DNA of 64,000 nucleotides from Arthrobacter castelli DSM 16402. Its GTDB lineage: Bacteria > Actinomycetota > Actinomycetes > Actinomycetales > Micrococcaceae. A program made the position numbers and the translations under genes. The notes under the pieces were generated by a model. The model was not told the DNA's origin. It ran no database searches and saw only the letters and a program-made list of their open reading frames with translations. Positions 4,401-6,391 of this stretch are shown piece by piece (the stretch's first letter is position 1; every line of letters starts with the position of its first letter). The stretch is taken from contig NZ_AUMN01000016.1 in the NCBI RefSeq assembly GCF_000430705.1, positions 1-64,000 on the forward strand, written 5' to 3'.

Positions 4401-5175
4401 CATCAGCTGCCAGGACTTTGTCTCCGGACCGGACATCACCCATGGTGGTCCAGCCGCCCGGTGTGGGAATGGGGGTATCCAGCGCCAAGGCCTTGCCCAT
4501 GGCCGGTCTCGCGGCAATGACGATCATCTGCCCCGGGTGCAGACCGTGGGTTAGATCGTCCAGTTCGTAGAAGCCGGTGGGAACGCCGACCATCTCGTTG
4601 CCGCGGTGTCCCGAGGCTTCGATTTCGTCGACAGTTCCCTCAATGACGTCGCGGAGGGGGACGTAGTCCTCGGTGGTGCGTCGTTCGGAGACCGCGTAGA
4701 TCTCAGCCTGCGCGGCATTGACGATGTCGTCGACTTCGCCGTCGTTTCCGTAGCCGAGCTGGACGATCCTGGTGCCTGCGTCCACCAATCGCCGAAGCAC
4801 CGACCGTTCCCGGACGATGTCCGCGTAGAAAGAGGCGTTAGCGGCCGTGGGCACCGACGAGATGAGGGTGTGCAGGTAAGCGGGGCCGCCGACGCGGGAA
4901 ATTTCCTTGCGCTTGGTGAGTTCGTCCGCGACGGTTACTGCGTCCGCCGGTTCCCCGCGGCTGTAGATATCGCAGATCGCGTCATAGATGCTTTCGTGGG
5001 CCGGACGGTAGAAGTCGTTGCCACGAAGTACCTCCACACAGTCGGCGATGGCGTCTTTGGACAGCATCATGCCGCCCAGGACGCTTTGCTCGGCCACCAG
5101 GTCCTGAGGCGGAGTGCGTGCGAATTCCGGTTCACGGGACGACGCGTTCGCCTCGTCCATGTGTGCCAGTGTCAT
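1468..5175 (-). CDS. dnaB: Replicative DNA helicase DnaB with two inteins
   Basis: This is the hexameric replicative helicase that unwinds DNA at the fork. The precursor is 1235 residues. Removing two inteins (residues 229-580 and 748-1174) leaves 456, a normal DnaB length. The N-extein (1-228) carries the DnaB N-terminal domain and ends in ARPAMGK of Walker A. The middle extein (581-747) has the RecA-like core with VVIDYLQLM and ALSQLNRGS. The last extein (1175-1235) starts SIEQDADMVVLLHRED. The start at 5175 is supported by GAGGAGAGG a few bases upstream. The gene lies downstream of rplI on the same strand but is separated from it by a terminator and about 710 bases of its own upstream DNA rich in DnaA-box sequences. 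Splicing of both inteins must be efficient for viability. Confidence 0.97.
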   Translation of the reverse strand: MTLAHMDEANASSREPEFARTPPQDLVAEQSVLGGMMLSKDAIADCVEVLRGNDFYRPAHESIYDAICDIYSRGEPADAVTVADELTKRKEISRVGGPAYLHTLISSVPTAANASFYADIVRERSVLRRLVDAGTRIVQLGYGNDGEVDDIVNAAQAEIYAVSERRTTEDYVPLRDVIEGTVDEIEASGHRGNEMVGVPTGFYELDDLTHGLHPGQMIVIAARPAMGKALALDTPIPTPGGWTTMGDVRSGDKVLAADGTPTEVVAATEVMTGRPCYEVLFDDGTTLIADEEHQWLTDTRASRKSAQAAAVGHNRTKNQQTFASVKTTGEIASTLRCPTKDTRLNHSVRNTEALALPAADLAIGPYTLGAWLGDGHSDAARVTNEDDEVLLRISGDGYRLNPVGDSLWCIELNQESRDGSFESILQRESLLGNKHIPAAYLRGSVAQRRALLAGLLDTDGTVSASGCIQFSVTHRRLAEDTRELIHSLGYRTGWWEKQVQGRSSASSIAFTITFSTDEEVFGLHRKKVLHKERDARSTPKRGTRFIKEARRIESVPVRCIQVAHRSHMYLAGESFVPTHNSTLALDIARSASIKNNLTSVVFSLEMSRNEIATKLLSAEATINLQDLRKGTIRDEQWSKIATTMGKMNDAPLFIDDSPNMSLMEIRAKCRRLKQRHDLKLVVIDYLQLMSSGKKVESRQQEVSEFSRALKLLAKELGVPVIALSQLNRGSEQRNDKKPMVSDLRESGCLTGDTRILRSDTGAETTMKELYDSGARDVPVWSMDDGLRYVERHLTHVFSTGRKAVYRLRLSSGKTVRATANHRFYTYDGWKPLGELTAGNRLAVPRHVNGPSERSNWDDSKVIMLAHLIGDGSFVRRQPLRYASVDQHNLKAVTKAAEHFGIAAVRDEHAAARCTSLRLPAPYRVTHGKRNPIAAWLDGMGLFGLRSHEKFVPTGVHALPKVQIALFLRHLWATDGSVTVRRDNSGGRIYYASTSRQLLDGVSRLLLRFGISARIKTTTPKAEYRPGYILDISGTDEQRRFLKEIGVHGERSENCRRLLAIVEQTSSNTNVDTVPGEVWKDVRDIMGGQGITHRDFQASLGSQYCGSTMYKTAPSRQRMARIADVLGDASMDVLAVNDILWDEIVSIEPDGEEEVFDATVLGTHNFIANGITVHNSIEQDADMVVLLHREDIYDKESARAGEADVIVAKHRNGPTKTIVVGFQGHYSRFSNMAVEQ
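1654..2934 (-). mobile_element. DnaB intein 2 (class 1, RESG/SIEQDAD site) with LAGLIDADG endonuclease
   Basis: 427 residues between DLRESG and SIEQDAD, the same insertion point as the well-known Synechocystis DnaB intein. It starts CLTGDTRIL (Cys1), has a block B TANH (T818, H821 of the precursor), and ends TVHN before Ser+1, all standard for class 1. LAHLIGDGSF and FLRHLWATDG are the two endonuclease motifs, both with the key Asp. The DNA is less GC-rich than the exteins (a hand count of one 60-base line gave 33 G+C against 38 in an extein line), which fits recent acquisition but is only a spot check. Confidence 0.94.
3436..4491 (-). mobile_element. DnaB intein 1 (class-3-like, in the Walker A loop) with LAGLIDADG endonuclease
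   Basis: 352 residues inserted between Lys and Ser of the GK|S Walker A motif. The intein begins ALALDTP, so residue 1 is Ala rather than Cys or Ser, and it ends FVPTHN before Ser+1. It shows the three class 3 marks: Trp in block B (EEHQWLTD, precursor residue 295), Cys in block F (VRCIQV, residue 559) and Thr in block G (residue 578). Class 3 inteins are known to start splicing from the block F Cys. Two dodecapeptide motifs, TLGAWLGDGH and LLAGLLDTDG, keep the acidic residues of a homing endonuclease. Boundaries follow from restoration of ARPAMGK-STLALDIAR in the extein. Confidence 0.93.
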
Positions 5176-5349
5176 TCGAACCTCTCCTCTTCGTGGCCCC
5201 TTTTACCGTCGCAGCACGGTTGTGCTGGTACCGCTTTTGGTCTATCAGGCGGCACTGACAATATCCGGCAGCTGGATCGCGAGCCGCTTTCCGGAGACCG
5301 CCTTAGAGAGGGCGGTTTGAGAACCACTCACGTAAACGTAGTCGCTGGT

Positions 5350-5602
5350 TTGTCCACCGCCAACTCCTTTGTCCACAGGTCAGGCGGATGAGGTGTGGAT
5401 AATGCGGCGTGTCTTGTGCACAGGATGGGGACGACGGTGTGGATAGCAGAATTCTTTTTTTCAAAACTGCGCTCTGACGTGGGAAAACGTCTCTTCACAG
5501 CTGTGGAGGAGAAGAATTTTTTCCCCAGCCTTCATCCACAGAACCCGCTTTGACAGACCGGAACGGAACGGGTATGCGTCACCAGTCCACAAGTTATCCA
5601 CA
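5350..5602. promoter_or_regulatory. Cluster of DnaA-box-like sequences upstream of dnaB
   Basis: Exact TTATCCACA is present at 5594-5602 (+) and 5394-5402 (-). TTGTCCACA, the Streptomyces-type box, is at 5369-5377, and TTGTGCACA at 5414-5422. Boxes with one mismatch lie at 5350-5358, 5438-5446 (-) and 5532-5540. AT-rich tracts at about 5448-5467 and 5512-5522 lie between them. This lies in the dnaB upstream region, between the rplI terminator and the dnaB start. It could let DnaA control dnaB, titrate DnaA, or serve as an origin-like element. The sequence alone does not decide between these. Confidence 0.7.
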
Positions 5603-5695
5603 AGCCGTATATTCCTTGTTGTGACTCGCTTCACGCCGCGGGCCAGCGCTGTTGACGTGCCTGTATTCCTTCGTCCGCATACCCGGGTCAAGCCC

Positions 5696-5717
5696 CTTAT
5701 TACTGCCCGGTAATAAG
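5696..5717. promoter_or_regulatory. Perfect inverted repeat, operator-like
   Basis: CTTATTAC and GTAATAAG form perfect 8-base arms around a 6-base centre. The AT-rich arms stand out from the surrounding GC-rich DNA. It lies about 520 bases upstream of dnaB and 170 bases downstream of rplI, outside any gene. It may be an operator for an unidentified regulator; a weak RNA hairpin is the alternative. Confidence 0.45.
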
Positions 5718-5888
5718 ACGCAAGGAGCGGTCGGAGCTCCAGCCGGACAGCACGCACCACAGCGGCCCGGGCAGGATGAAAAACCAGCAGCCCCGGTGGA
5801 GGTGCAGGGCTTGCCATGGCCATACACACATTCTCACCACTGACCCCCAAAAGGGCCGCTGACCCCCAGAAGGGCCCCGGCACGCAGA

Positions 5889-5914
5889 AGGGCCCCACCG
5901 ATTGGTAGGGCCCT
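5889..5914 (-). terminator. Hairpin terminator after rplI
   Basis: AGGGCCC (5889-5895) pairs with GGGCCCT (5908-5914). ACC/GGT extends the stem inward past one mismatch, leaving a GATT loop. It lies 28 bases beyond the rplI stop. No clear U-run follows on the minus strand, as is common in actinomycetes. Confidence 0.65.
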
Positions 5915-5941
5915 CCAGCGGTTCAGATGTGGAAACGGTGC

Positions 5942-6391
5942 CTAGTTGGTGACAACTTCCAGATCGATGACGGCCGAAACATCGTCGTGAAGACGGACGT
6001 TGGCCTGGTAGGAACCGGTCGACTTGATGTGCGTCGGCAGTTCAACCTTGCGCTTGTCAATCGAACCGAGTCCGGCAGCTTCGACAGCCGCTGCCACGTC
6101 GGAGGGCTTGACGGTGCCGAACAGGCGCCCGGTCTCCCCTGCCTTGACGGTGAGCTTGACTGGCTTCGCCGACAGTGCGGCAGCCTGCTGCTGGGCGTCT
6201 TCGAGGGAGGCGTGCTCACGCGCGATGCGGGCGGCCTTGATGGTCTCAACCTGCCGCTCGCCGCCCTTGGTCCAGGCCATCGCGAATCCGCGCGGCAACA
6301 GGTAGTTGCGCGCATACCCGTTCTTCACCTCGACGATGTCGCCGGCAGTGCCGAGTCCGGTCACTTCGTGGGTCAAAATAACTTTTGCCAT
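5942..6391 (-). CDS. rplI: 50S ribosomal protein L9
   Basis: 149 residues beginning [18 protein letters not shown], the conserved L9 N-domain, with the RNLLPRG-type segment NYLLPRGFA. This is followed by the long linker helix and a C-domain ending [13 protein letters not shown]9 binds 23S rRNA near the L1 stalk and helps frame maintenance. Its length equals the family norm. It is the last gene of the rpsF-ssb-rpsR-rplI block, 17 bases after rpsR, and is followed by a hairpin terminator that separates it from dnaB. Confidence 0.98.

Follow-up and report, generated by a model that had tools for sequence, protein, structure and literature searches.

A conserved DnaA-box array in helical register with the predicted dnaB promoter of Arthrobacter castelli and other Actinomycetia

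Introduction

A cluster of DnaA boxes lies directly upstream of dnaB in Arthrobacter castelli, between rplI and dnaB, and the question is what such a cluster does at the gene of the replicative helicase. The initial annotation of this DNA had considered that it could couple helicase supply to DnaA activity, act as a DnaA reservoir, or be an unrecognised origin element. Here we analysed the cluster within a window of 64 kb (bases 1-64000 of contig C16, which has 115,086 bases; the genome has 4.59 Mb in 49 contigs), and compared it with the corresponding regions of other genomes.

Dense DnaA-box clusters outside oriC have been described as titration or inactivation sites in Streptomyces coelicolor and Bacillus subtilis, and so has datA of E. 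coli. The S. coelicolor clusters were reportedly treated by Smulczyk-Krawczyszyn et al. in 2006. Compared by description, the likeness of all these sites to the A. castelli cluster is that dense boxes lie outside but near oriC.

A DnaA-bound region upstream of dnaB is already known from mycobacteria, and dnaB of Caulobacter is already known as a member of the DnaA regulon. In the work of Hicks et al. 2020 (PMC7738170), DnaA bound five regions, both in vitro with the M. tuberculosis protein and in vivo in M. smegmatis, and one of the five was upstream of dnaB. The same study reports that the I282T mutant of DnaA bound this region more weakly and that dnaB was uniquely under-expressed, which is a correlation from one study. 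The mycobacterial region (the Rv0057 region) has the same place as the A. castelli cluster and belongs to the same bacterial class; DnaA binding and a link to dnaB expression were shown there. The accessible parts of PMC7738170 give binding peaks, and hold no dnaB box array, promoter geometry, phasing or distribution beyond mycobacteria. Caulobacter crescentus dnaB has predicted DnaA boxes upstream and is listed in the DnaA regulon (Hottes 2005, as cited in PMC8203912 and PMC7738170). Its likeness to our case, taken from description, is the predicted upstream boxes, and it comes from a distant phylum.

A dense DnaA-box cluster lies upstream of dnaB

Seven matches to TTRTCCACA with at most one mismatch were found in the 253 bp of 5350-5602 (Table 1). 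The whole window contains 17 such matches, and no other 253-bp stretch of it has more than one. As a null model, 40 first-order Markov sequences with the length and dinucleotide content of the window were simulated, and the densest 253 bp in them held 1 or 2 boxes. The box density of 5350-5602 is beyond chance, as expected of dnaB upstream boxes of the mycobacterial and Caulobacter kind. The box inventory of the initial annotation was reproduced exactly: two copies of TTATCCACA, one TTGTCCACA, one TTGTGCACA and three one-mismatch boxes, distributed on both strands. AT-rich DNA lies between the boxes, as it had described, with 54.8% A+T in the middle (5447-5530); the A+T content of the whole cluster is 47.8%, versus 35.3% for the window.

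Table 1. Features of the dnaB upstream region of A. castelli (positions in the 64-kb window; gaps are counted to the predicted -35 element)
Feature	Position	Strand	Remarks
dnaB, replicative DNA helicase, 1235 aa	1468..5175	-	from the ORF list
Predicted dnaB transcription start	~5328	-	inferred from promoter geometry, 7 nt after -10
Predicted -10 element TACGTT	5335..5340	-	
DnaA box TTGTCCACC (1 mismatch)	5350..5358	+	overlaps the -35 end and the spacer; gap -14
Predicted -35 element TTGGCG	5358..5363	-	17-bp spacer to -10
Promoter-proximal DnaA box TTGTCCACA	5369..5377	+	ends 5 bp upstream of -35; centre about -45
DnaA box TTATCCACA (exact)	5394..5402	-	gap 30 bp
DnaA box TTGTGCACA	5414..5422	+	gap 50 bp; nearly invariant among Arthrobacter relatives
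DnaA box CTATCCACA (1 mismatch)	5438..5446	-	gap 74 bp; TTRTCCACA in many relatives
AT-rich stretch, 54.8% A+T	5447..5530		between the two array halves
Distal DnaA box TCATCCACA (1 mismatch)	5532..5540	+	gap 168 bp; also present in many Arthrobacter relatives
Distal DnaA box TTATCCACA (exact)	5594..5602	+	gap 230 bp
rplI (ribosomal protein bL9), upstream neighbour	5942..6391	-	

The genome was also searched by pattern for exact TTRTCCACA, the only form for which the genome-wide list is complete, and 74 sites were obtained. At least three of them within 300 bp occur at two places only, the dnaB cluster and C16:112618-112784. No Rfam match to a structured RNA was found in 5000-6000.

Two intein-like insertions interrupt the dnaB gene itself, one following ...ARPAMGK and one following ...LRESG. 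Judged from open-frame lengths of about 450-1550 aa, the insertion content seems variable among relatives. The N-terminal 228 aa of dnaB matched strongly in almost all Actinomycetia genomes.

The box cluster is conserved with dnaB across Actinomycetia

The dnaB N-terminus was used as the query, and 1.3 kb of upstream sequence was then taken from 135 genomes; the reversed motif served as the background control for box counts. In 61 Micrococcaceae genomes, the mean was 6.18 sites per 1.3 kb versus 0.48 for the control. Most other Actinomycetia families sampled had about 2 to 5 sites versus 0 to 1.5. The check that had been proposed for this locus, conservation of the boxes in related dnaB upstream regions, thus gave a clear result, and the boxes are kept. 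Close matches to rplI came from Arthrobacter and related genera, and the boxes keep their order and spacing in the rplI-dnaB gaps of the Arthrobacter relatives. The TTGTGCACA box together with its neighbour 24 bp away is almost invariant among them, and the weak box at 5350-5358 is not conserved at its place. One record titled 'Vibrio cholerae strain 35D' (L102, WNZI01000003.1) contains the same dnaB box cluster, and its rplI shares 83% identity with that of A. castelli; the record is probably mislabelled or contaminated.

The cluster essentially disappears outside the class: 40 genomes of other classes in the phylum gave 0.6 sites per 1-kb slice with a control of 0.175, the main exceptions being L314 (3 sites) and L327 (4 sites). 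Within the class, it is absent from five Micrococcaceae (G003, G005, G033, G041 and G058), weak in G060, and absent from most members of families f16, f21, f36 and f38. Since some lineages live without it, the array is not indispensable, and the Micrococcaceae that lack it would be natural tests of its role. An exact two-box pattern, TTRTCCACAN15TGTGCACAA, was also searched in 395 genomes and proved too strict, with only 7 genomes matched; the matches in G475 and G178 are upstream of dnaB, and that in G136 is beside crgA.

The boxes are in helical register with the predicted dnaB promoter

Aligning the relatives revealed a conserved TTG...N17...TAnnnT element immediately downstream of the last box. 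We take this element, which begins 5 bp beyond that box, as a predicted sigma-70-like promoter (TTGnnn-N17-TAnnnT). The pattern TTGnnn-N16-18-TAnnnT occurs once in the dnaB upstream region of A. castelli, and the 5' UTR counted from the predicted start would be about 150 nt. Among the 135 upstream regions, exactly one candidate was found in 82, the others having no single unambiguous candidate, and block-shuffled upstream sequence gave 0.16 candidates per region. The promoter elements were picked blind to the box positions.

On the + strand, 5551-5579 contains TTGACA with a TA 17 bp further on, directed away from dnaB. Of the 61 Micrococcaceae dnaB upstream regions, 21 have TTGAC(A/G/C) on the opposite strand, followed by a TA at a distance of 16-18 bp. 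A divergent promoter at 5551-5579 (+) is not claimed, since its -10 element is without the last T.

The gaps between the boxes and the predicted -35 element were then compared among families. In one box orientation, they fall at 7-8, 18-20, 29-31, 40-42, 50-52, 62-65, 72-75, 83-85, 93-96 and 105-107 bp. In the opposite orientation, the main gaps are 4-6, 39-40, 49-51, 59-62, 80-83 and 91-93 bp. The gap of 4-6 bp for the promoter-proximal box is common to Micrococcaceae, f25, f26 and f27, and the gap of 29-31 bp was found in 7 families. For sites on the + strand, the best period was 10.9 bp with R = 0.86 (69 unique (family, gap) sites from 15 families), and for those on the - strand it was 11.0 bp with R = 0.75 (26 sites from 9 families). 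Counting each (family, gap) pair once, with families labelled f1-f77, lessens the phylogenetic dependence in these values, and some of it remains. When the start codon was used as the anchor instead, as a control, no phasing was observed (R = 0.13 and 0.17). The phase was common across families when compared with random per-family offsets (p = 2e-4 for the + strand and about 2e-3 for the - strand). These results show that the array is in helical register with the predicted core promoter, and that this register is common to families. The boxes are positioned relative to the dnaB promoter, the promoter itself being a prediction.

A probable DnaA-responsive control region of dnaB

We favour, with good confidence, the reading that the cluster serves as a DnaA-responsive control region, with DnaA bound on one face of the helix beside RNA polymerase regulating, and probably activating, dnaB. 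DnaA would bind the box array, whose proximal box ends just short of the -35 element. The other near boxes follow farther upstream, offset by multiples of roughly 10.9 bp, and would put DnaA protomers on the promoter's side of the helix. There, DnaA would most likely aid RNA polymerase at the dnaB promoter, and helicase supply would then follow DnaA activity. The near boxes are at about -45, -70, -90 and -114 from the predicted dnaB start. Sites upstream and in register, beside RNA polymerase, are the geometry expected of class I and class II activators. DnaA-dependent activation of dnaB is the most likely outcome because of the in-register boxes together with the mycobacterial and Caulobacter data. 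We infer that DnaA occupies 5350-5602 in A. castelli, that the sign of regulation is activation, and that the control of dnaB is timed in the cell cycle. The suggestion that helicase supply is coupled to DnaA activity is therefore the one of the initial proposals that fared best, being well supported by conservation, promoter phasing and the mycobacterial binding and expression data.

A broader version of this reading could equally well hold or fail. It says that the class-wide phased DnaA array on the dnaB promoter, whose boxes recur at multiples of roughly 10.9 bp and whose nearest box ends 4-8 bp upstream of -35, is a dedicated activation platform: DnaA would touch RNA polymerase on one face of the helix, and helicase output would rise with DnaA activity before initiation. 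The array would be an ancestral helicase-supply switch of the class, lost in a few lineages.

The class-wide conservation and the phasing appear to be new. A literature search on DnaA at the dnaB upstream region or promoter, covering largely open-access papers, gave just two results, the mycobacterial paper and a cyanobacterial study in which the dnaB promoter serves as an expression tool. In the same scope, which left aside most subscription papers including the 2006 Streptomyces cluster paper, no description of class-wide conservation or of a 10.9-bp register was found. If the proposed control is true, the isolated reports from Caulobacter and mycobacteria would become a general rule of Actinomycetia, and the supply of helicase would be coupled to DnaA activity in streptomycetes and mycobacteria as well as in soil actinobacteria. 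It would also provide a precise geometry for the action of DnaA on RNA polymerase, and half-turn insertions are predicted to abolish the regulation.

Alternative roles of the cluster

The cluster may instead be mainly a DnaA reservoir, a titration site near oriC of the datA and S. coelicolor kind, whose place upstream of dnaB is incidental. Strong boxes are indeed clustered here outside oriC yet near the origin. With 3 exact boxes, the cluster exceeds the oriC region, where 1 exact box and four with one mismatch are present. Its distance from oriC is about 94 kb, and in most of the complete relatives checked some 20-150 kb separate dnaB from dnaA. Box clusters of S. coelicolor (PMC4585315) and B. 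subtilis (PMC10950094) repress untimely initiation, as stated in these papers. However, titration needs no promoter phasing, yet the phasing is strong and common to families. The cluster also tracks dnaB and not rplI: the boxes remain with dnaB when genes lie between rplI and dnaB, when the two are on separate contigs, or when they are about 20 kb apart (G030, G039, G023 and G050). We therefore regard a mainly titrating role as unlikely. A reservoir effect as a by-product of dnaB control is possible, and both roles could coexist.

That DnaA represses dnaB here and so prevents an excess of helicase is more doubtful still. The weak box 5350-5358 overlaps the -35 element and the spacer, as a repressor site might, but this box is the one that is not conserved, and the conserved boxes are upstream of -35, where activators typically bind. 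In M. tuberculosis, moreover, reduced DnaA binding accompanied reduced dnaB expression. There is very little room for the view that the 9-mer repeats serve as sites for another protein or are functionless; the exact DnaA-box sequence and the helical phase are conserved across families, and DnaA binding data exist for the mycobacterial counterpart.

The ordinary origin is in the dnaA-dnaN region

A second replication origin or origin element, unrecognised so far, would account for the box density and for the AT-rich stretch between the boxes, and the cluster does share DnaA boxes and AT-rich DNA with the oriC of A. castelli. The absence of dnaA and dnaN next to the cluster, noticed at the outset, was confirmed, neither gene being in the 64-kb window. 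dnaA is on the same contig C16 at 97930-99345 (+), so that about 94 kb separates the origin region from the dnaB cluster. It is followed on its 3' side by genes that we take, from their translations, to be dnaN, a gnd-like gene, recF, gyrB and gyrA. The dnaA-dnaN gap contains boxes at 99401, 99413, 99446, 99495 and 99582 (span 99401-99590), and an AT-rich stretch comes after the last of them. Along the 115-kb contig, the cumulative GC skew is lowest at 100,895 and not at 5.4 kb. Since the skew minimum, the boxes and the AT-rich stretch are all there, the ordinary origin is the dnaA-dnaN region. This oriC differs from the dnaB cluster in having the origin genes and the skew minimum, and seemingly also in its AT-rich stretch next to a strong box; the cluster is richer in exact boxes. 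The AT-rich stretch at 5447-5530, where a DNA-unwinding element might be looked for, has only 54.8% A+T. A second origin at dnaB is accordingly most improbable, and the origin proposal was not supported; a skew minimum located elsewhere counts against that proposal alone, and leaves the DnaA-responsive control of dnaB untouched.

Other groups of DnaA boxes were observed near the origin. Five DnaA-box-like sites are found around the start of gyrB (~103970) at G000:C16:103724-104238, a candidate DnaA-responsive region. Outside the window, a second dense cluster at C16:112593-112784 (L262) has 7 sites, 4 of them exact within 167 bp; it directly follows the gene pair ppiA-rhomboid and is 13 kb away from oriC. 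Several relatives (e.g. L268, L267, L269, L284 and L276) have similar clusters near crgA. For the DnaA site at Rv0010c-Rv0011c of M. tuberculosis, the authors saw no obvious correspondence in other bacterial species (PMC7738170). The clusters near crgA share their neighbourhood with this site.
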